This document shows, in pieces, positions 2 to 12,341 of a DNA stretch of 40,004 nt (within the stretch, counting starts at the first letter, position 1; the number at the start of each line of letters is the position of its first letter). Below the pieces are notes generated by a model. The model searched no databases, was not told the DNA's origin, and saw only the letters and a list, made by a program, of their open reading frames with translations. The translations under genes and the position numbers were made by a program. The stretch comes from Herpetosiphonaceae bacterium (GTDB lineage Bacteria > Chloroflexota > Chloroflexia > Chloroflexales > Herpetosiphonaceae). Where the stretch lies: NCBI GenBank assembly GCA_013538855.1, contig JABXJS010000217.1, positions 1-40,004 of the forward strand, in the 5' to 3' direction.

Positions 2-3000
2 CTGGCGACCCACGGCATCAGCAGCGCCTACGTACCGCCGTTTTTTGTCGCCGATCTGGCGCAAGCCGTCGAGCGCGCCGCCCACGACTTGCGCCTGCGC
101 CGACTCCTAGTCGGCGTCGAGCCGATCCCCGAGGAGCTGCTGCAGACAATTGCGGCCCAGCTGCCAGCGCTGACAATCATCAATGGCTACGGCCCCACCG
201 AGACCACCGTGTGCTCGACACTCTACCGCATTGCGCCGACGCCGCGCCGCCGCCGCACCACGCCAATTGGCCAGCCGCTGCAGAACACGCAGATCTATGT
301 GCTTGATCAGCAGCTGCAGCTCGTGCCGCTCGGCGTGCCTGGTGAGATCTACATCGGCGGCGCGGGCCTGGCGCATGGCTACCTCAACCAGCCAGCGCTG
401 ACCGCCGCGCGCTTCATCCCCGATCCGTTCAGCGGCGCGCCCGGAGCCAGGCTGTACCGCACTGGCGACCTGGCGCGCTGGCTGCCGACAGGCGAGCTAG
501 AGTTTCTTGGGCGGCGCGATCAGCAGGTCAAGCTGCGCGGCATGCGCATCGAACTCGGCGAGATCGAGGCGCTGCTGCGCACGCATCCAGCGGTGCGCAG
601 CGCCGTGGCCAGCGTGCGCGAGGACACGCCCGGCCAGCAGCGCCTGGTGGCCTATGTGGTCGCCCAGCCAGACAGCGCCGCGCCCACCCTGCTCAGCGCG
701 CTAGACGACCTCATGGCCCAAACGCTGCCCGCAGCCATGCAGCCGCTGCTGATGCTGCTGGACGCCCTGCCGCTGGCCCCAAGCGGCAAAATCGACCGCC
801 GCGCCCTGCCGCAGCCAGCGGCGGGCACTGCCAGTGCCGACAGCGCCCCGCTCAGCGCGCTTGAGGCGACCATCGCCAGCATCTGGCGCGAGCTGCTCGG
901 CACGCTGGTGACAAGTCGTGAGGCCAACTTCTTCGCCTTGGGCGGCCACTCGCTGCTAGCGGCGCGGCTGGCGCATCGGCTGAGCACGACATTCCAGGTT
1001 GCGCTGCCGATGCAGGCGGTGTTCGCCGCACCGACCATCGCCGCCCAAGCCGCACAGCTCGCCAGCGCGCAGCGCCAAGACCACAGCGCCGACAGCCTGC
1101 CGCTGGTTGATCGCAGCGCGCCGCTGCCGCTGTCCTTCGCTCAACAGCGCATCTGGTTCCTTGACCAGCTGGAGCCGGGCAACCCGGTCTACAACACGGC
1201 GCTGGCAGTGCAGCTGCGCGGGCCGCTCGACGCTGCGGCCATGCGCGCCAGCCTTAGCGCGCTGGTCGCACGCCACGAGGCGCTGCGCACAACGTTCGCC
1301 GTGCAGGATGGCCAGCCGGTTCAGGTCATTCAGCCGCCGTGGGCAGTCGCGCTGCCGAGCCTTGATCTCAGCGCGCTGCCAGCTGAACAGCGCACACAGC
1401 GCGCCGAGCAGGAGATCAGCCTCGCCGTGCGCACAGGCTTTGATCTTAGCCGCGAACCGCTGCTGCGCGCCATGCTGCTGCGCCTGAGCGCCGACGAGCA
1501 CATCCTCACCCTGATCACGCACCACATCGTTTTTGATGGCTCGCACGACCTGTTTTATCAGGAGCTAGCGGCGCTCTACAACGCCCAACTGCGTGGCGCA
1601 AACCTGACGCTGCCAGCGCTGCCAGCGCAGTATGCCGACTTTGCCGCCTGGCAGCGTCGCTGGCTGAGCGGGCCGCGGCTTGAGCAGCAGCTAGACTACT
1701 GGCGGCAGCAGCTCAGCGGCGATCTTAGCCCACTCCAACTGCCCACCGATCATCCGCGCCCGGCGCTGCAGACCTTCCACGGCGCACGCCATAGCTTCCG
1801 CCTGCCCGCTCAGCTCAGCGCCGATCTCAAGGCACTCAGCGCAGCGACTGAGTCGACGCCGTTTATGGTTGGGCTGGCGGCGTTCCAGGCGCTGCTGCTG
1901 CGCTATACCGGCCAGACGCAGATCGCCGTTGGCACGCCGGTGGTTAACCGCAGCCATCCAGCCAGCGTAAGCATGCTTGGCAACTTCGTCAACACGCTCG
2001 TGCTGCGCAGCGATCTTACAGGCAATCCGCGCTTCTGCGAGCTGCTGGAGCACGTGCGCACCGTCGCGCTCGCAGCATTTGCCCATCAGGATGTGCCGTT
2101 TGAGATGATCGTCGATGCCGTGCAGCCACAGCGCGACTTTAGCCGCAACCCGCTGTTTCAGGTAATGTTTGTGTTCCAGCCTGCGCCGCTGCAAGGCCCT
2201 GCGCTGACCAACCTCGACGCCACGATTCTGCCAGTCGATAGCGGCACAGCGCGCTTTGACCTGCTGCTGGCCCTGTGGGACGGCCCCGACGGCGTCACCG
2301 GCATGATCGAGTACAACCGCGATCTCTTTGAGCCAGCGACGATCACGCGCATGCAGGAGCACTATGTCAACTTGCTGGCCTGCGCCAGCGCGCATCCCGA
2401 GCGGCACATCGCCAGCCTCGATCTGCTGGCGGCCGCCGAGCAGCAGTGCATGCTGCACGAGTGGAACGCCACCGCCGCCGCCTATCAGCGTGATCGCTGT
2501 ATGCACGAGCTGTTCGAGCAGCAGGCCGCCAGCACGCCCGACGCCATCGCCGTGCTGGCCGACACAGGCACGCTGAGCTATCAGGCCCTCAACGAGCGCG
2601 CCAACCAGATTGCGCATATGCTGCGCGCGCTCGGCGTTGGACGTGGATCGCTGGTCGGCGTGTATATGGAGCGCTCGCTGGAGCTTATTCCGGCGCTGCT
2701 GGGCGTGCTCAAGGCCGGCGCAACCTACGTGCCGCTTGAGATCAGCTACCCACAGGCGCGCATCGCCTGGATTCTCGACGCCCTCGATGTGCGCTGCGTC
2801 GTCACCTCCAGCGCCTGCCTGAGCAAGCTCCAGGCAGCCTCGCCAGCGCTAGCGGATGTGCTCTGCCTCGACTACGCTGCGCCGAGCGCCGTTATCGGCG
2901 GGCTGCGCATCTGGGGCCAGGACGAGATCGCGCTGCAGCCGCGCAGCAATCCACAGCCGTGGAGCAGCGCCGACGATCTGGCCTACATCATCTTTACCTC

Positions 3001-4477
3001 TGGCTCGACTGGCACGCCCAAAGGCGTGATGGTGCGCCATCGCCCAGCCGTCAACCTGATCGAGTGGGTCAACCGGCGCTTTCACATCGGTCAGGCTGAT
3101 CGCGTGCTGTTCGTGACATCGATCTGCTTCGACCTCTCGGTCTACGACATCTTTGGGCTGCTGGCGGCTGGCGGCTCGATCCGCGTCGTCGGTGAGGCAG
3201 CCCTGCACGACCCAGAGCAGCTGGTGGGCATCCTGAGCAGCGAGTCGATCACCTTCTGGGACTCAGCGCCGGCGATGCTCCAGCAGCTCGCGCCGCTCCT
3301 GCCGACTAGCGCACAGAGCGCACACCCGCTGCGGCTGGTGTTCCTGAGCGGCGACTGGATTCCCGTAGCGCTGCCTGATCAGGTGCGGCGGGCCTTCCCT
3401 GGCGCGCGCGTGATCAGCCTTGGCGGCGCGACCGAGGCCACAATCTGGTCGAACTTCTACCCCATCGACCGCGTCGAGCCAGACTGGACGAGCATTCCCT
3501 ACGGGCGGCCGATCCACAACGCACGCTACTACATCTTGGATGCGCAGCTCAACCCGTGTCCTATCGGCGTGGCGGGCGATCTGTACATCGGCGGCGAGTG
3601 CCTGGCCTCCGGCTATGTGCGCGCGCCAGCGCTGACGGCCAGCAAGTTTCTGCCTGATCCGTTTGCCAGCACCGCAGGCGCGCGCATGTACCGCACCGGC
3701 GATCAGGCGCGCTTCTGGCCCGACGGCACCATGATCTTCCTTGGCCGCGTCGACCACCAGGTGAAGGTGCGCGGCTTCCGCATCGAGCTCGGCGAGATCG
3801 AGAGCGTGCTCTGCGCGCATCCCGATGTGCGCGAGGCCGTGGTGCTGGCGCGCGAGGACACGCCTGGCGACAAGCGGCTGGTGGCCTATGTGGTGCCAGC
3901 AGGCGCGTCAGCGCCGAGCAATGCCGAGCTGCGCCAGCATCTCCAGGCGCGCCTGCCGGAGTACATGCTGCCGTCGGCGTTCATGGTCTTGGCGGCGCTG
4001 CCGATCAGCAGCAATGGCAAGGTTGATCGTAAAGCCCTGCCAGCCGTCGAGCACCAGCGCCCGGCGCTCGCCGCGCAGTACCAAGCGCCAGCCGATCCCA
4101 TCGAGGCGCAGGTAGCGGCGATCTGGGCCAGTGTGCTGGGACTGGACAGCGTCGGCGTACACGATAACTTCTTTGATCTTGGCGGCCACTCGCTGCTGGT
4201 CACGCAGATTATGTTTCAGGTGCGCGCGGCCTTCCAGGTCGAGCTGCCACTGCGCGACCTGTTCGAGAACCCGACTGTGGCCGGGATCGCGGCGCTGCTG
4301 CGCACTGCGCCGAGCCAGCCACCGACAACCATTAGCGCGATTGAAAGCGTGAGCCAGAGCCACAAGACGCTGATCGACCTCCTAGACGAGCTAGAGCAGC
4401 TGCCCGAGGAGGCTGTCGATCTCTCCGACGAGGTGCTGATGCGCATCCTCTCCAGCTCAGACAGCCCTGTTCGCTAG
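2..4477 (+). CDS. Non-ribosomal peptide synthetase, 5'-truncated (A-PCP-C-A-PCP)
   Basis: The reading frame is open from base 2, so the gene enters from the left and its true start is outside the window. Domains in order: the C-terminal part of an adenylation (A) domain (motifs NGYGPTE, GEIYIGG, YRTGDLARW, GRRDQQVKLRG, SGKIDR), to about 820; a carrier protein with LGGHSLLA (Ser codon 950-952); a condensation domain about 1115-2430 with SFAQQRIWFL, the intact HHIVFDG active site (1520-1540), VNTLVLR and HQDVPFE; a complete A domain about 2505-4060 (IIFTSGSTGTPKG, FDLSVYDIFG, NGKVDRK); a second carrier protein (Ser codon 4190-4192); and an acidic C-terminal tail. By alignment to GrsA numbering from memory, the complete A domain has pocket residues DLYDFSLIWK. 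The nearest code I recall is cysteine (DLYNLSLIWK), so Cys or a related residue is inferred. The truncated A domain shows only Y278, L299, G301, G322, V330 and C331, so I make no substrate call. There is no thioesterase, so the chain passes to the next gene. Confident for family, tentative for substrate. Confidence 0.95.
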   Translation: MATHGISSAYVPPFFVADLAQAVERAAHDLRLRRLLVGVEPIPEELLQTIAAQLPALTIINGYGPTETTVCSTLYRIAPTPRRRRTTPIGQPLQNTQIYVLDQQLQLVPLGVPGEIYIGGAGLAHGYLNQPALTAARFIPDPFSGAPGARLYRTGDLARWLPTGELEFLGRRDQQVKLRGMRIELGEIEALLRTHPAVRSAVASVREDTPGQQRLVAYVVAQPDSAAPTLLSALDDLMAQTLPAAMQPLLMLLDALPLAPSGKIDRRALPQPAAGTASADSAPLSALEATIASIWRELLGTLVTSREANFFALGGHSLLAARLAHRLSTTFQVALPMQAVFAAPTIAAQAAQLASAQRQDHSADSLPLVDRSAPLPLSFAQQRIWFLDQLEPGNPVYNTALAVQLRGPLDAAAMRASLSALVARHEALRTTFAVQDGQPVQVIQPPWAVALPSLDLSALPAEQRTQRAEQEISLAVRTGFDLSREPLLRAMLLRLSADEHILTLITHHIVFDGSHDLFYQELAALYNAQLRGANLTLPALPAQYADFAAWQRRWLSGPRLEQQLDYWRQQLSGDLSPLQLPTDHPRPALQTFHGARHSFRLPAQLSADLKALSAATESTPFMVGLAAFQALLLRYTGQTQIAVGTPVVNRSHPASVSMLGNFVNTLVLRSDLTGNPRFCELLEHVRTVALAAFAHQDVPFEMIVDAVQPQRDFSRNPLFQVMFVFQPAPLQGPALTNLDATILPVDSGTARFDLLLALWDGPDGVTGMIEYNRDLFEPATITRMQEHYVNLLACASAHPERHIASLDLLAAAEQQCMLHEWNATAAAYQRDRCMHELFEQQAASTPDAIAVLADTGTLSYQALNERANQIAHMLRALGVGRGSLVGVYMERSLELIPALLGVLKAGATYVPLEISYPQARIAWILDALDVRCVVTSSACLSKLQAASPALADVLCLDYAAPSAVIGGLRIWGQDEIALQPRSNPQPWSSADDLAYIIFTSGSTGTPKGVMVRHRPAVNLIEWVNRRFHIGQADRVLFVTSICFDLSVYDIFGLLAAGGSIRVVGEAALHDPEQLVGILSSESITFWDSAPAMLQQLAPLLPTSAQSAHPLRLVFLSGDWIPVALPDQVRRAFPGARVISLGGATEATIWSNFYPIDRVEPDWTSIPYGRPIHNARYYILDAQLNPCPIGVAGDLYIGGECLASGYVRAPALTASKFLPDPFASTAGARMYRTGDQARFWPDGTMIFLGRVDHQVKVRGFRIELGEIESVLCAHPDVREAVVLAREDTPGDKRLVAYVVPAGASAPSNAELRQHLQARLPEYMLPSAFMVLAALPISSNGKVDRKALPAVEHQRPALAAQYQAPADPIEAQVAAIWASVLGLDSVGVHDNFFDLGGHSLLVTQIMFQVRAAFQVELPLRDLFENPTVAGIAALLRTAPSQPPTTISAIESVSQSHKTLIDLLDELEQLPEEAVDLSDEVLMRILSSSDSPVR

Positions 4478-4528: not shown

Positions 4529-7500
4529 ATGGATAATCTCTCAACTCGGCTGGCCGGTCTATCGCCACAGAAGCAGGCGCTGCTTGAGCGCGCGCTCCGC
4601 CAGCAAGGTGCGGCATTCAACACCTTTCCGCTCGCCTTTCAACAGCAGCGCATGTGGTTTTTGGCCACCCGCGACGCCGACGACGCATCGCAGCATATCT
4701 GCGGAGCCGTGCGCCTGAGCGGGCCGCTCGATCTGGCGGCGCTGGAGCAGAGCCTCAACACGCTGATTCGCCGCCAGGCCACGCTGCGCACCAGCTTTCC
4801 GGCGATCAACGGCCAGCCAGTGCAGATGATCGCCCCAGAGCTGCACATCAGCCTGCCGATTCTGGACCTTCAGCGCCACCCGGCGGCGACACGCACGGCC
4901 GAGGCCCAGCGCATCATCCGCGCCGAGAGCCAGCGCCCGTTTGACCTGACCGCGCCGCCGCTGATGCGCGTCACTCTGCTGCGCCTTGGCCCGGACGAAC
5001 ACATGCTGGTGACGATTCTGCACCACATCATCGCCGACCTGCGCTCGGTCGAGGTGCTGCTCTACGAGATGGCCACGCTGTACGATGCCGCTGTGCACCA
5101 GCAGCCAGCGCCGCTGCCAGAGCTGCCGATCCAGTTCGCCGACTATGCGCGCTGGCAGCAGCAGTGGATGCAGGGCGAGGTGCTCCAGCAGCAGCTTGGC
5201 TACTGGCAGCAGCAGCTGGCCGACGCGCCCGAGCTGCTGGCGCTGCCCACCGACCGCCCGCGCCCGGCCGTGCGTACCAGCGCCGGGGCCAGCCACCGCT
5301 TTCTGGTCGATAAGGCGACCAGCGCCAGCCTCGCGCGCCTGGCGCAAAGCGAGGGCGCAACGCTGTTCATGGCGGCGCTGGCGGCGTTCAAAACGCTGCT
5401 CTACCGCTACACCAGCGAGCGCGATATCTGCGTTGGCACGCCGATCATCAACCGTGGCCGCGCCGAGACCGAGGGCCTGATCGGCTTCTTTCTCAACACG
5501 CTGGTGCTGCGCACCGATCTCGATGGCGCGCCGAGCTTCCGCACGCTGCTCGGGCGGCTGCGCGAGGTTGCGCTCAGCGCCTACGCGCACCAAGACGTGC
5601 CGTTCGACTACCTGATCAACACGCTGCGGCCCGAGCGCAATCCCAGCTACACGCCGCTGTTTCAAGTGCTGTTTATCTTGCGCAACGCGCCGCTGCCGGT
5701 GCGCACAAGCGCCGGACTCACGCTCACGCCGCTGGCGATTGACAATCCGACCGCGCACTTCGACCTGATGCTGGTGATGGAAGAAAGCGCCGACGGCATC
5801 GCCGCCTCGTTCGAGTACAGCACCGAGCTGTTCGATGCCGCTACCATTGAGCGCATGGCGCAGCACTACCTGAATCTGCTCGCCGCCATCTGCGCCGACC
5901 CAGACGCCGCCATCGACGCGCTGCCGCTGCTCAGCGCCGCCGAGCGCCAGCAGATCATCGGTGATTGGAACAGCACCGCCGTCAGCTATCCTGGCCCGGA
6001 GTGCCTGCACACCCTGGTAGAGGCCCAGGCCGCCAGCCAGCCGCACGCCGTGGCGCTGATCTTCGAGGACCAGCGCATGACCTACGGCGAGCTGAACGCC
6101 CGCGCCAACCAGCTCGCGCACCAGCTGATCGAGCGCGGCGTGGGGCCGGAGACGCTGGTGGGCATCTGCGCCGAGCGCTCGCTGGAGCTGGTGGTCGGAC
6201 TGCTGGGCATCCTCAAGGCCGGCGGGGCCTATGTGCCGCTCGACGCCAGCTATCCTGTCGAGCGCCTAGCCTTTATGCTCAACGATGCCCAGCCCGCCGT
6301 GCTGCTAACGGCTCTGCCCGCAGCCGCGACGCTTAGCCCAGAGCTGCGCAGCCTGCTGGAGCAGGGCGACTGGCCGCTGATTGAGCTGACCGAAAGCTGG
6401 AGCAGCAACACCCACGCCCCGATCAGCAATCCTGACGTGGCGGTCAGCGGGGCCAATCTGGCCTATATGATCTACACCTCCGGCTCGACCGGTCGGCCGA
6501 AGGGCGCGCTCAACCAGCACAGCGGCATTCGCAACCGTCTGCTGTGGATGCAGGCGCAGTACCAGCTCACGGCGGATGATCGCGTGCTGCAAAAAACACC
6601 GTTTAGCTTTGATGTCTCGGTGTGGGAGTTTTTCTGGCCCTTGATCAGTGGCGCGCAGCTGGTGCTGGCCCGCCCAGAGGGCCACAAAGACCCGAGCTAT
6701 CTTGCCGAGCTGATTCAGCGCGAGCAGATCACCACGCTGCACTTTGTCCCCTCGATGCTGCGCCTGTTCCTTGAGCATCCGGCCGCGTCAGCCTGCACAT
6801 CGCTGCGGCGCGTGATCTGCTCCGGCGAAGCACTTGGCGTCGATCTACAGGCGCACTTCTTCGAGCGCATGGCCGCCGAGCTGCACAACCTGTACGGCCC
6901 GACCGAGGCGGCCATCGACGTATCATTCTGGCGCTGTGAGCCGCATAGCCAGCTGCCGAGCGTGCCGATTGGCCGACCGGTGTCCAACACCCAGCTGTAC
7001 ATCCTCGACCAGGCCATGCAGCCGGTGCCGATTGGCGTCGTAGGCGAGCTGTACATCGGCGGCGTGCAGGTGGGCCGCGGCTATCTCAATCGGCCGGAGC
7101 TAACGGCGGAGCGCTTTATTCGCGATCCGTTCAGCGCCGCGCCGAGCGCCCGCCTCTACCGCACCGGCGACCTAGCGCGCTTCCGCCCCGATGGCAGCAT
7201 CGAGTTCCTGGGCCGCAGCGACACCCAGGTCAAGCTGCGCGGCTTCCGCATTGAGCTCGGCGAGATCGAGGCCGTGCTCGCCGAGCACCCGGCCGTGCAG
7301 ACCGCGCTGGTCGTTGAGCGCCAGGACCGCAGCGGCGATGCCTACCTGGCCGCCTACGTGGTGCAGCGCAGCGCCGTGCCCGCCGATCAGGCCAGCGCCG
7401 TCGATAGCCAGACCGTCGCGCAGTGGCAGGAGGTCTGGGAGACCACCTACAGCGACGTGGCCGCCAGCAGCGACCCGACCTTCAACATCACCGGCTGGAA

Positions 7501-9853
7501 CAGCAGCTACACCAAGCAGCCTATTCCAGCAGAGCATATGCACGAGTGGCGCGAGCGCACCGTCGCGCGCATTCGCGCCGGCCATCCGCAGCGCGTGCTG
7601 GAGATGGGCAGCGGCACCGGCATGCTGATGTTCCGCATCGCGCCGGAGTGCCGCGAGTATCTGGCCTGCGACTTCTCGGCGGCGGCAGCCAGCTACCTGC
7701 GCCAGCACGCCGCCCAGCGCGGCCTCAGCCATGTTCGCGTTGAGCAGCGGCCCGCCGAGGACTTCAGCGGCATTCCCGACCAGGCCTTCGACGCGGTGGT
7801 GGTCAACTCGGTGCTGCAGTTCTTCCCGACCATCGACTACCTGGCGCGGGTGGTCGAGGGCGCGGTGCGCGTCACTGCGCCAGGCGGGCGCGTGTTCATC
7901 GGCGATGTGCGCAGCCTGCCGCTGCTGGAGGCATTCCACGCCTCGGTACAGCTGGCCCAGGCCGACGGGGCGCTTGAGCAGGATGTCTGGGCCGAGCGCG
8001 TGCGCAGCGCCCTCCTGCGCGAGGAGGAGCTGGTCGTCGATCCGGCCTTCTTTGTGGCCCTGCGCCAGCGGCTGCCGCGCATCGGCCACGTCGATATCTT
8101 GCTCAAGCGCGGCACGCAGCACGACGAGCTGACCAAGTTTCGCTACGACGCGATTCTGCACATCGAGCCGCAGCACGTCGCCCCTGCGCCGACCACGCTG
8201 GACTGGCAGCACGAGCAACTGACGCTGCCACGGCTTCAGCAGCTGCTGCGCGAGCATACGCCCAGTGCGCTCGGCCTCACCAACGTGCCCAACGCTCGCC
8301 TGCTGGCCGATCTCCAGCTCACCACGCACCTGCGCCAGAGCGGCCCAATGACCGTCGCCGAGCTGCGCAGCGCCGTGGAGCCGCTGACGGCCACGGGCGT
8401 CGAGCCAGAGGCGATCTGGCAGCTGGGCGCGGCGCTTGGCTACACCACCGCGATCAGCTGGCCGGGCGCTGCTAGCGCCGCCTGCTTCAACGTCACGTTC
8501 AGCCGCCACAGCGCCGCGCTTGCCAACAGCGACGGTGCCGCCCAGCCCGCCGCGCCAGAGCCACGCAGCGCCCATCGGCCATGGAGCGAGTACAGCAACA
8601 GCCCGCTGCAGGCGCTGTTCGCCCACGAGCTGGTGCCGCAGCTGCGCGCCTGCCTGAGCCAGCGCCTGCCCGACTACATGGTGCCCGCCGCCTTCGTGCT
8701 GCTGGAGCGCCTGCCGCTCACCGCCAACGGCAAGCTCGACCGCCAGGCCCTGCCTGCGCCCTACCAGTTGCGCGCCGAGCTGACCACAGCCTTTGTCGCG
8801 CCGCGCGACGAGCTTGAGCAACAGCTCGTGAGCATCTGGGAGCAGCTGCTCGACGCCCGCCCGATTGGCATCAGCGATGACTTCTTCGATCTTGGCGGCC
8901 ACTCTATCCTGGCCGTGCGGCTGATGGCGCGTATCCAGCAAGACTACGGCGTGCAGCTGCCGGTCGCAGCACTCTTCCAGGGCGCGACCATCGCCGACCT
9001 GGCCAGCCTGCTGCGCGAGCGCGTCGGAGCCAGCGCCAGCACAGCGCTTGTCGGCATTCAGCCCAGCGGCAGCCGCACGCCGTTCTTTTGCATCCATCCT
9101 GGCGGCGGCCACGTGATGGCCTACTACAACCTGGCCCACCTGCTCGGCCCTGATCAGCCGTTCTACGCGCTCCAGTCGATCGGCCTCGATGGGGCCGAGG
9201 AGCCGCTGACGCGCTTCGAGGCCATGGCCGCACGCTACATCAAGGAGCTGCGCGCCGTGCAGCCCACAGGGCCATACTTGATCGGCGGGTGGTGCACCGG
9301 CGGCCGCATCGCAACCGAGATCGCCCGCCAGCTTCAGGCCGACGGCCAGCAGGTGGCGCTGCTCGCCCTGCTCGATGCTACGCCGATCCTCAGCCACCTG
9401 CCGCTCGATGTCGAGACCGCCGACGACGCCCGCCTGCTGGGCACGATGTCGCCAGCGCTGCACGCGATCGAGCAGGCGCTGCCGCCGCTCGCGCCTGACG
9501 CACGCCTGGACACGCTGGTCGAGCGCGGGCGTGCGGCCGGACTGCTGCCAGGCGATGTCGATCTGACCTACATCCTAATGATCCTCAAGGTCTATCGCGC
9601 CAATCTGCGCGCCGAGCGCCGCTGCGTGCCCACCAGCTACCACGGGCGCACCGTGCTGTTCCGCGCCAGCCAGCAGCCGGCGGACGCGCTGCCCGACCTT
9701 GGCTGGGGCGTGTTCATCACGACGGGCCTGGAGGTCGTCGATATTCCCGGCGATCACTTCAGCATGGTCGAGGATGCCGATGATGTGCAGGCGCTTGCGG
9801 CGCTGCTGCGCACGGCCATCGATCAGGCTGGTGCAGTCGCCGCCGGGGCCTAA
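4529..9853 (+). CDS. NRPS terminal module C-A(Ser)-N-methyltransferase-PCP-thioesterase
   Basis: The protein has 1774 aa. I chose ATG 4529 because AGGAG lies upstream (4511-4515). A GTG at 4496 is in frame but has no ribosome site. The gene is 51 bp after the previous synthetase, probably in the same operon. Domains by residue: condensation about 33-470, where the active site reads HHIIADL (165-171; the usual final Gly is Leu); adenylation from about 490 with YMIYTSGSTGRPKG and FDVSVWEFF, pocket residues DVWHISLIDK, which match the serine code; an S-adenosylmethionine N-methyltransferase inserted after motif A8, about 967-1214, with VLEMGSGTG and VVVNSVLQFFP; the A-domain C-terminus with NGKLDR; a carrier protein (Ser1459 in LGGHSILA); and a type I thioesterase with FFCIHPGGG, GGWCTGG (nucleophile Cys1589 instead of Ser), the Asp of LALLDATP and His of GDHFSMVE. 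It should add N-methyl-serine last and release the product by hydrolysis, macrocyclisation or beta-lactone formation. The release mode cannot be decided from sequence alone. Confidence 0.95.
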   Translation: MDNLSTRLAGLSPQKQALLERALRQQGAAFNTFPLAFQQQRMWFLATRDADDASQHICGAVRLSGPLDLAALEQSLNTLIRRQATLRTSFPAINGQPVQMIAPELHISLPILDLQRHPAATRTAEAQRIIRAESQRPFDLTAPPLMRVTLLRLGPDEHMLVTILHHIIADLRSVEVLLYEMATLYDAAVHQQPAPLPELPIQFADYARWQQQWMQGEVLQQQLGYWQQQLADAPELLALPTDRPRPAVRTSAGASHRFLVDKATSASLARLAQSEGATLFMAALAAFKTLLYRYTSERDICVGTPIINRGRAETEGLIGFFLNTLVLRTDLDGAPSFRTLLGRLREVALSAYAHQDVPFDYLINTLRPERNPSYTPLFQVLFILRNAPLPVRTSAGLTLTPLAIDNPTAHFDLMLVMEESADGIAASFEYSTELFDAATIERMAQHYLNLLAAICADPDAAIDALPLLSAAERQQIIGDWNSTAVSYPGPECLHTLVEAQAASQPHAVALIFEDQRMTYGELNARANQLAHQLIERGVGPETLVGICAERSLELVVGLLGILKAGGAYVPLDASYPVERLAFMLNDAQPAVLLTALPAAATLSPELRSLLEQGDWPLIELTESWSSNTHAPISNPDVAVSGANLAYMIYTSGSTGRPKGALNQHSGIRNRLLWMQAQYQLTADDRVLQKTPFSFDVSVWEFFWPLISGAQLVLARPEGHKDPSYLAELIQREQITTLHFVPSMLRLFLEHPAASACTSLRRVICSGEALGVDLQAHFFERMAAELHNLYGPTEAAIDVSFWRCEPHSQLPSVPIGRPVSNTQLYILDQAMQPVPIGVVGELYIGGVQVGRGYLNRPELTAERFIRDPFSAAPSARLYRTGDLARFRPDGSIEFLGRSDTQVKLRGFRIELGEIEAVLAEHPAVQTALVVERQDRSGDAYLAAYVVQRSAVPADQASAVDSQTVAQWQEVWETTYSDVAASSDPTFNITGWNSSYTKQPIPAEHMHEWRERTVARIRAGHPQRVLEMGSGTGMLMFRIAPECREYLACDFSAAAASYLRQHAAQRGLSHVRVEQRPAEDFSGIPDQAFDAVVVNSVLQFFPTIDYLARVVEGAVRVTAPGGRVFIGDVRSLPLLEAFHASVQLAQADGALEQDVWAERVRSALLREEELVVDPAFFVALRQRLPRIGHVDILLKRGTQHDELTKFRYDAILHIEPQHVAPAPTTLDWQHEQLTLPRLQQLLREHTPSALGLTNVPNARLLADLQLTTHLRQSGPMTVAELRSAVEPLTATGVEPEAIWQLGAALGYTTAISWPGAASAACFNVTFSRHSAALANSDGAAQPAAPEPRSAHRPWSEYSNSPLQALFAHELVPQLRACLSQRLPDYMVPAAFVLLERLPLTANGKLDRQALPAPYQLRAELTTAFVAPRDELEQQLVSIWEQLLDARPIGISDDFFDLGGHSILAVRLMARIQQDYGVQLPVAALFQGATIADLASLLRERVGASASTALVGIQPSGSRTPFFCIHPGGGHVMAYYNLAHLLGPDQPFYALQSIGLDGAEEPLTRFEAMAARYIKELRAVQPTGPYLIGGWCTGGRIATEIARQLQADGQQVALLALLDATPILSHLPLDVETADDARLLGTMSPALHAIEQALPPLAPDARLDTLVERGRAAGLLPGDVDLTYILMILKVYRANLRAERRCVPTSYHGRTVLFRASQQPADALPDLGWGVFITTGLEVVDIPGDHFSMVEDADDVQALAALLRTAIDQAGAVAAGA

Positions 9854-10010: not shown

Positions 10011-12341
10011 ATGTCGCATGAGTCGCGGCCAACCCCGCCCGCCGCCGTGGAGCACACCCGTCGCTCTGGCCTCCTTAGCCTGATGACGCTGGTTGTGCTA
10101 ATCGCCCTCAGCTGGCTGAGCCTGGCCAGCTTTCGCCCGCCGCCCGCTGCGCCGATCAGCGCCGCGCCGGATGTGTTCTCGGCTGGCCGCGCAATGCAGC
10201 TGCTGAGCAACATCGCCCAGCGCCCGCATCCCACCGGCACGCCGGAGCAGGCCCGCGTGCGCGACTACCTTGTGGGCCAGCTCAGCGCCCTCGGCCTTGA
10301 GACCAGCGTCCAGCGCACCAGCGTCATCAATGATCGCTGGGGCGTTCCGCTGGCGGGCGCGACCATCGAAAATATCATCGGCCGCCTGCCTGGCAGTGCG
10401 CCCACCAAGTCCATTGTGCTGATGGCGCACTACGACTCGGTGCTGGCTGGCCCTGGTGCCAGCGATGACGGCGCAGCGGTCGCCGCCCTGCTCGAAACCG
10501 TTCGCGCCCTCGGCAGCGGCTACAAAAACGATGTGATTGTGCTGTTAACCGACGGTGAGGAGGCCGGGCTGCTGGGCGCGAAGGCGTTCATGGATGCGAA
10601 TCCGCTGGCCAAGGACGTTGGGCTTGTGCTCAATTTTGAGGCGCGCGGCATCAGCGGCCCGGCGCTGATGTTCGAGACCAGCCCGCAGAACGGCTGGCTG
10701 ATCAAAGAGTTCGCCAGCGTGGCCCCGCGCGCCTTCGCCAGCTCGCTGTTCTACGATGTCTACCGCTACTTGCCCAACGACACCGACTTCACCATGTTCA
10801 AGAGCGCCGGCATCCCTGGCCTCAACTTCGCCTACATCGACGGCCTGACGCACTACCACAGCGCCCTCGATACGCTAGACAACGTGAGCGCGCCCAGCCT
10901 GCAGCACCACGGCGAGTACGCGCTAGCGCTGACCCGCCACTTGGCCAACCGCGATCTGCGCGAGATCAAGCAAGATGATTATGTCTATTTTGATCTATTC
11001 GGCAGGTTGCTGGTACGCTATCCCAACACCTTGGTGCTGCCGCTGGCCATCCTGGCGGCGCTGCTCTGCTGTGGAATGGTCGGGCTGGGGCTACGGCGGC
11101 GGCAGCTCAGCGGGCGGGGGCTGCTAGCGGGCTTTCTGCTCGTACTGCTGCCGCTGATCGCCGCTGTGCTGCTAGCCATCGGCGTCGCCCTGCTAATCAA
11201 GGCTGTCCACGGCGAGGCGGCCTACTACGGCGAGCCATATCAGCGCACCTGGTACCTCGCTGGCCTAGTGGCGCTCATTCTGACCGTCGCCGCCGCGCTC
11301 TATGGCTGGCTGCGGCGCAAAATCCGCCCGGCCAACCTTGCCGTTGGGGCCATGCTCTGGTGGCTGCTGCTGACGCTGCTCACCAGCCTCGCGCTGCCTG
11401 GCGCAAGCTATCTATTCACCTGGCCGCTGCTCTTCAGCAGCCTGGGGCTTGGCGCGGTGATCCTGGGCGGGCCTGCGCTCAGTCCGCTGCGGCGCACCAG
11501 CGTGCTGTTGCTCAGCGCCGTGCCAGCAGTTGTGCTGTTCGTGCCGCTGATCTACCTGATCTCGGTAGCGCTGACACTACAGATGGGCATGGCCGTGGGC
11601 GTCGTCACCGTGCTGCTGCTGGTGCTGCTGCTGCCACTGCTCGAGGTGCTCGCCGCGCCGCGGCCATGGCTGCTGCCAGCCAGTGCGCTGCTGACGGGGG
11701 CGGGCTGCCTCATCGGCGGCGTGCTCAGCGCCGGCTACAGCGCCGCCAGCCCGCAGCTCACCAACGTCTGGTACAGCCTCAACGCCAACACGCAGTCGGC
11801 GGCCTGGGTCAGCGATGCAGCGCCAGACAGCGCCTGGGCGCAGCAGTTTTTCAGCAGCCCAACGACCATGGGCAGCGATGCCGCCAGCGCCGCGCTCATG
11901 CCTGGCACCTTCCACATCGCCGCCGCGCCAGCCAGCGCGCTGCCTGCGCCTGAGCTACAGGTCATCGCCGACAGCACCGACGCTGGAGTGCGCACGCTGA
12001 CGCTCAAGCTGACATCGCCACGCCAAGCGCCCTTCGTCGCGCTCTTCGCCGCCGCCGATACGCCGGTGCTCAGCGCCAGCGTTGCCGACAAGCCCGCTCC
12101 CAGCGTCGCAGGGGCCTGGGGACTCACCTACTGGGGCCTGCCGAGCAGCGGCCTAGAGCTGCAAATCAGCGTCAAGGCCGGGCAGGCGCTCACGCTCCAG
12201 GTGCTCGACCGCAGCGACGCCCTGCCCAACCTCAGCGACGGCGCGCTCATGCCACGGCCTGGCACAATGCAGCCAGCGCCTTTCCTCGGCCCAGCCCGCT
12301 TCGGCAACGCCACCCTCGTGAGCAAATCGTTCAGCTTCTAG
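10011..12341 (+). CDS. M28-family membrane aminopeptidase
   Basis: The protein has 776 aa, with ATG preceded by GGAG (9997-10000). One N-terminal membrane helix is followed by an M28 zinc peptidase domain (about residues 55-310). Visible metal or catalytic positions are His140 in MAHYDS, Asp152 in ASDDGA, Glu183-Glu184 in TDGEEAG, Glu210 in NFEARG and His283 in THYHSALD. A region of about eight hydrophobic segments (about 340-575) and a C-terminal soluble domain follow. The order resembles eukaryotic ERMP1/Pff1-type vacuolar M28 proteases and their bacterial relatives. The active site should face outside the cytoplasm. It lies 157 bp after the NRPS on the same strand. It could trim or inactivate the peptide product, or serve in unrelated peptide scavenging; the link is positional only. 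The peptidase call is firm, the role unknown. Confidence 0.9.
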   Translation: MSHESRPTPPAAVEHTRRSGLLSLMTLVVLIALSWLSLASFRPPPAAPISAAPDVFSAGRAMQLLSNIAQRPHPTGTPEQARVRDYLVGQLSALGLETSVQRTSVINDRWGVPLAGATIENIIGRLPGSAPTKSIVLMAHYDSVLAGPGASDDGAAVAALLETVRALGSGYKNDVIVLLTDGEEAGLLGAKAFMDANPLAKDVGLVLNFEARGISGPALMFETSPQNGWLIKEFASVAPRAFASSLFYDVYRYLPNDTDFTMFKSAGIPGLNFAYIDGLTHYHSALDTLDNVSAPSLQHHGEYALALTRHLANRDLREIKQDDYVYFDLFGRLLVRYPNTLVLPLAILAALLCCGMVGLGLRRRQLSGRGLLAGFLLVLLPLIAAVLLAIGVALLIKAVHGEAAYYGEPYQRTWYLAGLVALILTVAAALYGWLRRKIRPANLAVGAMLWWLLLTLLTSLALPGASYLFTWPLLFSSLGLGAVILGGPALSPLRRTSVLLLSAVPAVVLFVPLIYLISVALTLQMGMAVGVVTVLLLVLLLPLLEVLAAPRPWLLPASALLTGAGCLIGGVLSAGYSAASPQLTNVWYSLNANTQSAAWVSDAAPDSAWAQQFFSSPTTMGSDAASAALMPGTFHIAAAPASALPAPELQVIADSTDAGVRTLTLKLTSPRQAPFVALFAAADTPVLSASVADKPAPSVAGAWGLTYWGLPSSGLELQISVKAGQALTLQVLDRSDALPNLSDGALMPRPGTMQPAPFLGPARFGNATLVSKSFSF

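Follow-up and report, generated by a model that had tools for sequence, protein, structure and literature searches.

Thioesterase (TE) domains with a cysteine nucleophile include those of ObiF1 (obafluorin) and SulM (sulfazecin), both of which make four-membered rings on last residues with a beta nucleophile (PMC11298585, PMC6668435). In these two enzymes the triad Asp is reported to lie after strand beta7 (position II), and the domains group with type II TEs (PMC11298585, PMC6668435). For SulM the published criteria are a QCN motif, an Asp at position II and a 2,3-diaminopropionate (Dap) code in the last adenylation (A) domain, and N-sulfonation is described as preceding ring closure (PMC11298585). 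AB3403, a nonribosomal peptide synthetase (NRPS) of Acinetobacter baumannii, is a Cys TE with the Asp in the ordinary position (PMC11298585).

The DNA analysed here (the window) is an entire contig (C176) of 40,004 bases from a Chloroflexota genome of 6.3 Mb (G000). It carries two NRPS genes, the second of which ends in a Cys TE directly behind an N-methyltransferase (nMT) module. Their features are collected in Table 1.

Table 1. Features of the NRPS genes in the window, and loci of the beta-Ala-type modules
Feature	Position	Strand	Basis
NRPS gene: partial A - PCP - C - A (code DLYDFSLIW) - PCP	2..4477	+	open frame, Pfam, A code; 5' part lost at contig start
Terminal NRPS gene, C-A-nMT-PCP-TE, 1785 aa	4496..9853	+	open frame, Pfam
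Condensation (C) domain	4622..5956	+	PF00668
Adenylation core, Ser code DVWHISLID	6011..7390	+	code by alignment, A-core tree
N-methyltransferase, inserted in A domain between motifs a8 and a9	7421..8485	+	Methyltransf_12/11/25 above cut-off
Carrier protein (PCP) domain	8819..9013	+	PF00550
Type I thioesterase domain, Cys nucleophile	9032..9850	+	PF00975, 100.2 bits, above cut-off
Catalytic Cys codon TGC in GGWCTGG	9293..9295	+	direct reading, alignment
Triad Asp, position I, GAT in LLALLDA	9374..9376	+	direct reading, alignment
Triad His, CAC in PGDHFS	9755..9757	+	direct reading, alignment
Beta-Ala-type Cys-TE modules	L119, L121, L124, L125, L209, L237, L249, L265, L269, L271, L274		

The start of the first gene appears to sit at locus L018 on contig C238: the two contigs overlap by 10 bases, the end of C238 repeating the opening of the window, and the reading frame continues across the join. 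The break in the A domain is complementary, as C238 stops at profile position 248 and the window begins at 254, and among the 35 AMP-binding matches in the genome C238 holds the one other NRPS A domain cut in a complementary place. A weak AMP-binding fragment (profile 248-331, 29.5 bits) was found on contig C90 as well. The proposed join rests on the 10-base overlap and the frame, and this counts against the main reading given below. The C238 gene encodes an AMP-binding domain with a DIP2-like C-terminal domain, then PCP, C and A domains; from this make-up we infer a fatty acyl-AMP ligase (FAAL) starter. The best matches of its first domain, at about 55% identity, are in myxobacterial loci. 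The predicted order of the line is FAAL-ACP-C-A-PCP-C-A-PCP, then C-A(Ser)-nMT-PCP-TE, and the window would carry the part of a lipopeptide line that releases the product. The first A domain has the code DVY.LGGVC (one position falls in the contig gap) and the second DLYDFSLIW by alignment, and the expected product is fatty acyl - residue 1 - residue 2 (Cys-like code) - N-methyl-Ser. An M28 peptidase gene with a hydrophobic N-terminal stretch lies on the same strand 157 bases past the NRPS gene (10011-12341, +); it was set aside as a pathway member, as nothing supports such a role.

The Cys nucleophile and the intact Asp and His, which the first-pass annotation had claimed, were both confirmed. 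The TE motif was read directly as GPYLIGGWCTGGRIATE, with TGC in the place of the nucleophile codon, and across an 86-row TE alignment the two other triad columns hold Asp in 78 and His in 78 of the rows. The four nearest TEs, which come from three other genomes, have Cys at the same site; the window Cys is therefore not a sequencing error, and the possibility that resequencing might show a Ser codon is contradicted. The domain has the features of a type I NRPS TE, namely a PF00975 match, a place C-terminal to the PCP, a nucleophile-Asp-His triad and an Asp after beta6 (position I). In the AlphaFold2 model (pLDDT 95.4) this Asp is residue 115, right after the strand E108-114, and in the aligned window stretch VLFRASQQPAD no acid stands at position II.

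Both sequence and structure comparisons lead to AB3403. In a phmmer search of the PDB to E 10, which returned 44 sequences, the best match of the window TE was AB3403 (PDB 4zxh, 2.9e-35), and ObiF1 was absent. A type II TE from the window's own genome matches ObiF1 at 1.8e-5. The AlphaFold2 model of the TE has a fold closest to AB3403 (Z 31.5, rmsd 2.5 over 263 residues, 30% identity), ahead of the second-best match at Z 27.4, and EntF also appears in the list of structural matches (3tej, Z 24.7). ObiF1 and SulM are absent among the 50 structural matches listed, which does not amount to their exclusion. AB3403 shares with the window the GGWC nucleophile motif and the Asp at position I, but the TE tree does not place it in the same clade as the window, and its four-domain protein (C-A-PCP-TE) is not known to have an nMT. 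ObiF1 likewise has a Cys nucleophile and a beta-hydroxy last residue; however, its Asp is at position II and it is type II-like. SulM also has the Cys nucleophile, and sister lines of the window are predicted to end in Dap, whereas SulM combines position II, QCN and a Dap code where the window has position I, WCT and a Ser code. The window TE thus has the Cys nucleophile of the ObiF type, with neither its Asp position nor its type II grouping; it nests among type I Ser TEs in the 86-row tree, which was built without ObiF1 and SulM. Cys as a mark of kinship with ObiF was therefore rejected on triad arrangement and homology. The obafluorin analogy of the first-pass annotation did not hold up, and the phylogenetic placement that it had asked for put the domain among type I TEs within a Cys clade, in a tree without ObiF1. 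The analogy fails on a defining feature, which does not itself decide on ring formation.

The terminal A code DVWHISLID, obtained by alignment, departs from the Ser/Dha codes DVWHLSLVDK/DVWHMSLVDK exactly and only at positions 299 and 330, at which reported variants of these codes differ (PMC12283262). The methyltransferase follows motif a8 within the A domain: AMP-binding_C is split at profile position 38, and the methyltransferase runs from about residue 1030. An insert between a8 and a9 is described as the usual backbone N-methylating type (PMC8949500). Code and insert position together make N-methyl-Ser the best prediction, as had been proposed from the sequence. Several modules with a Ser code and nMT were also observed in genomes G021 and G024 (L289-L291, L293, L294, L303), and N-methyl-Ser seems common in the predicted peptides of this genus. 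A search of the literature on N-methyl-serine lines and on TAN-1057 found nothing decisive.

The TE tree was built on 86 rows, picked for their score, length and nucleophile; the nucleophile column itself was taken out of the alignment. The window TE falls in a Cys clade of five with L017 and L180 (both G021), L181 (G024) and L211 (MAG THP_Bin_29), at an SH-aLRT of 98, and the sister group consists of seven myxobacterial Ser TEs (support 95). We describe here as new this supported Chloroflexota Cys-TE clade, every member of which lies directly behind an nMT module. In all five the TE motif is GGWC[TS]GG, directly after nMT-PCP. The last A code is DIWEITADD in L017, L181 and L211; the A domain of L180 lies off its contig, and the window has the Ser code. 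The SbnA (2,3-diaminopropionate) family TIGR03945 was found above cut-off beside L017 and L180, and an SbnA fragment (66.8 bits) directly after the L181 TE, at the contig end. In genome G305 a Cys TE likewise goes with a code of this kind and with SbnA, next to which lies a gene of the ornithine cyclodeaminase family. On the one basis of this SbnA neighbourhood, we read the DIWE.TADD codes as Dap. The window's own genome has no SbnA above cut-off, as expected for Ser; neither has the L211 genome, which counts against the Dap reading. No literature match was found for the codes DIWELTADD, DIWEITADD, DIWEVTADD, DLYDFSLIW and DLYDLSLIW.

Some further loci may be mentioned. At L304:2622-9220 a Cys-TE module with the code DIWEVTADD is followed by SbnA and an SbnB-like ornithine cyclodeaminase-family gene, near polysaccharide genes. 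L308:1732-3060 is an A domain with the Cys-like code DLYNWSMIW, and its contig carries an SbnA gene too. The L017 line differs from the window in having a PKS protein upstream in place of the FAAL, and in MFS and Lant_dehydr_N genes; the Lant_dehydr_N protein (L017:483-3071, 862 aa) adjoins the Dap-type Cys-TE line. PEARL-like ligases are reported to occur in NRPS clusters (PMC11212132), and by analogy an aminoacyl-tRNA-dependent C-terminal extension is possible in the L017 line.

The domains of the terminal module do not appear to share one history. In the A-core tree, the nearest neighbours of the window core are two Ser A domains from one genome of the same family (support 97), and the eight Dap-type A cores all fall together in a clade apart (100); the Dap-clade A cores rank 52, 115 and 232 of 378 matches to the window core. 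The Dap-clade stretches comprising the post-methyltransferase part and PCP rank 1-4 of 436 for the window, and the Dap-clade TEs rank 1-4 of 225. L017 is second-best of 301 matches to the window C domain, and for the penultimate A domain L017 reaches 63.6% identity, the next match 45%. Apparently, the simplest account is that a Dap core was exchanged for a Ser core on an inherited Cys-TE tail; descent of the C domain from the Dap-type line is suggested less clearly. The exchange would have run from Dap to Ser, because Dap-type members outnumber the one Ser member and the Ser core is local to the family. The nMT tree gives the window nMT no resolved position, which counts against this account and leaves the right edge of the swap unplaced. 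Recombination is reported to shape peptide diversity in NRPSs generally (PMC8097286). As the Cys is common to lines with a predicted Dap end, Ser was probably not the reason for its acquisition.

How unusual the Cys nucleophile is was assessed in a phylum survey of 142 TEs, drawn from matches in 400 phylum genomes (110 places) and 82 genomes of the order (30), plus the window and L017, with weaker or partial rows left out. The nucleophile is Ser in 91, Cys in 50 and Gly in one. Cys TEs are hence a minority, as had been stated, though not rare. A second set of 85 TEs was picked by peptide patterns, one of them containing GGWC, and its 14 Cys TEs are no measure of frequency. On the TE tree at least nine Ser/Cys changes are needed, of which the starred branches alone force three. 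Cys TEs do not form one block: besides the window's clade they include a large group from other Chloroflexota, AB3403 and others, and a cyanobacterial group in which they follow beta-Ala-type codes.

Codes and nucleophiles were compared over 223 TEs, 169 of them with a readable code; L210, L241, L251 and L253 were dropped as duplicates. Terminal modules with VDWVISLAD-like codes, which we take to stand for beta-Ala, have a Cys TE in 11 of 11 cases, and these TEs stand at several places in the tree. Since Cys TEs occur in separate groups, including all of these, the Cys alone says little on four-membered rings. Nor does Dap coding require Cys, for nine Dap-coded modules comprise five with Cys, three with Ser (one ortholog group) and one with Gly (Fisher p 0.052, not significant). 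The idea that N-methylation requires Cys was likewise rejected, as in L207 an nMT module is followed by a Ser TE. Six Cys-Asn TEs with GGFCNGG-like motifs were seen in other Chloroflexota (L104, L105, L106, L122, L128, L149). In place of the Asp at position I they have N, N, S, N, T and A, respectively, and acidic residues follow the later strand; on their sequences these six are candidates for the ObiF/SulM triad arrangement.

Our joint reading, to which we give a probability of about 0.55, is that of a lipopeptide line with a type I Cys TE, for which hydrolysis is the likeliest release, after a Dap-to-Ser core swap that kept the Cys TE. The PCP-TE tail, the penultimate A domain and, less clearly, the C domain would go back to a type of line ending in N-methyl-Dap. 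A local Ser A core would then have replaced the Dap core, so that the line now ends in Ser in place of Dap while the Cys TE stayed. By thiotransfer the chain would pass from the carrier to Cys88 of the TE, where it is bound as a thioester, and the acyl lipotripeptide would be released from Cys88 most likely by water, as a linear acid. Hydrolytic release of the lipotripeptide, judged from sequence, is the likeliest outcome, at a little under one half; it is the default because this is a type I TE with no identified nucleophile. The Ser mutant of ObiF1 is reported mainly to hydrolyse, the Cys of ObiF1 being linked to suppressed hydrolysis (PMC6668435), and in the microcystin TE a Ser-to-Cys change raised activity (PMC11735501). 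Cys TEs may therefore favour transfer over hydrolysis, and the Cys can be taken to promote ring closure or aminolysis, which weakens the default.

The main alternative to hydrolysis, though on balance unlikely, is ring closure or coupling through another nucleophile. The thiol of a penultimate Cys-like residue would give a thiolactone, a hydroxyl on the fatty acid a depsipeptide, and an amine from outside an amide. The penultimate code DLYDFSLIW agrees at seven of nine letters with the Cys code DLYNLSLIW, and the A domain that carries it is the one most clearly common to the window and L017 lines. Cys TEs form thioesters, which are more open to amines, and the activity gained by the microcystin TE points the same way. 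Nevertheless, the substrate of DLYDFSLIW is only predicted, no nucleophile was recognised on the starter, and there is no direct sign of a ring.

Attack of the beta-hydroxyl of N-methyl-Ser on its own thioester, giving a beta-lactone as in ObiF, with beta-lactams from N-methyl-Dap in the sister lines, we consider improbable. A Cys nucleophile does meet a beta-hydroxy residue here, as in the four-ring makers ObiF1 and SulM (PMC11298585, PMC6668435), and Dap, the other predicted last residue of the clade, likewise has a beta nucleophile, so that a mechanism common to the clade is conceivable. A lactone or unusual ring, which the first-pass annotation held chemically possible, is in this sense conceivable from sequence; its obafluorin-like form is unsupported, given the Asp at position I and no acid at position II. 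The WCT motif in place of the QCN of SulM and the missing ObiF1 match to E 10 also argue against it, and the proteins that were scanned around three of the Dap-type loci included no sulfotransferase family. In addition, Cys TEs terminate all the beta-Ala-coded modules, where such chemistry is impossible, and the Dap-coded modules are not always of the Cys type.

Slightly less probable still is an iterative TE, in which the N-methyl-Ser hydroxyl attacks the next chain and a cyclic di- or trilactone results, as in enterobactin. EntF carries a terminal N-acyl-Ser and is among the structural relatives, but its nucleophile is Ser, it is not close to the window TE, the sister lines end in predicted Dap-type residues, and nothing specific suggests oligomers. 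The faintest prospect is that four-membered-ring TEs arose in this clade a third time, independently, with the usual type I triad and no need of N-sulfonation; they would make beta-lactams from N-methyl-Dap and, in the swapped window, a beta-lactone from N-methyl-Ser.

The result draws a line between a Cys TE and a strained-ring maker. Cys and Ser have been interchanged repeatedly in our dataset, mostly with an ordinary triad, and the motif alone is therefore no reason to call beta-lactones. The window apparently preserves a natural exchange in which the last residue before the same Cys TE went from a beta-amino to a beta-hydroxy one, so that the chemistry and tolerance of the TE would be testable with paired substrates.
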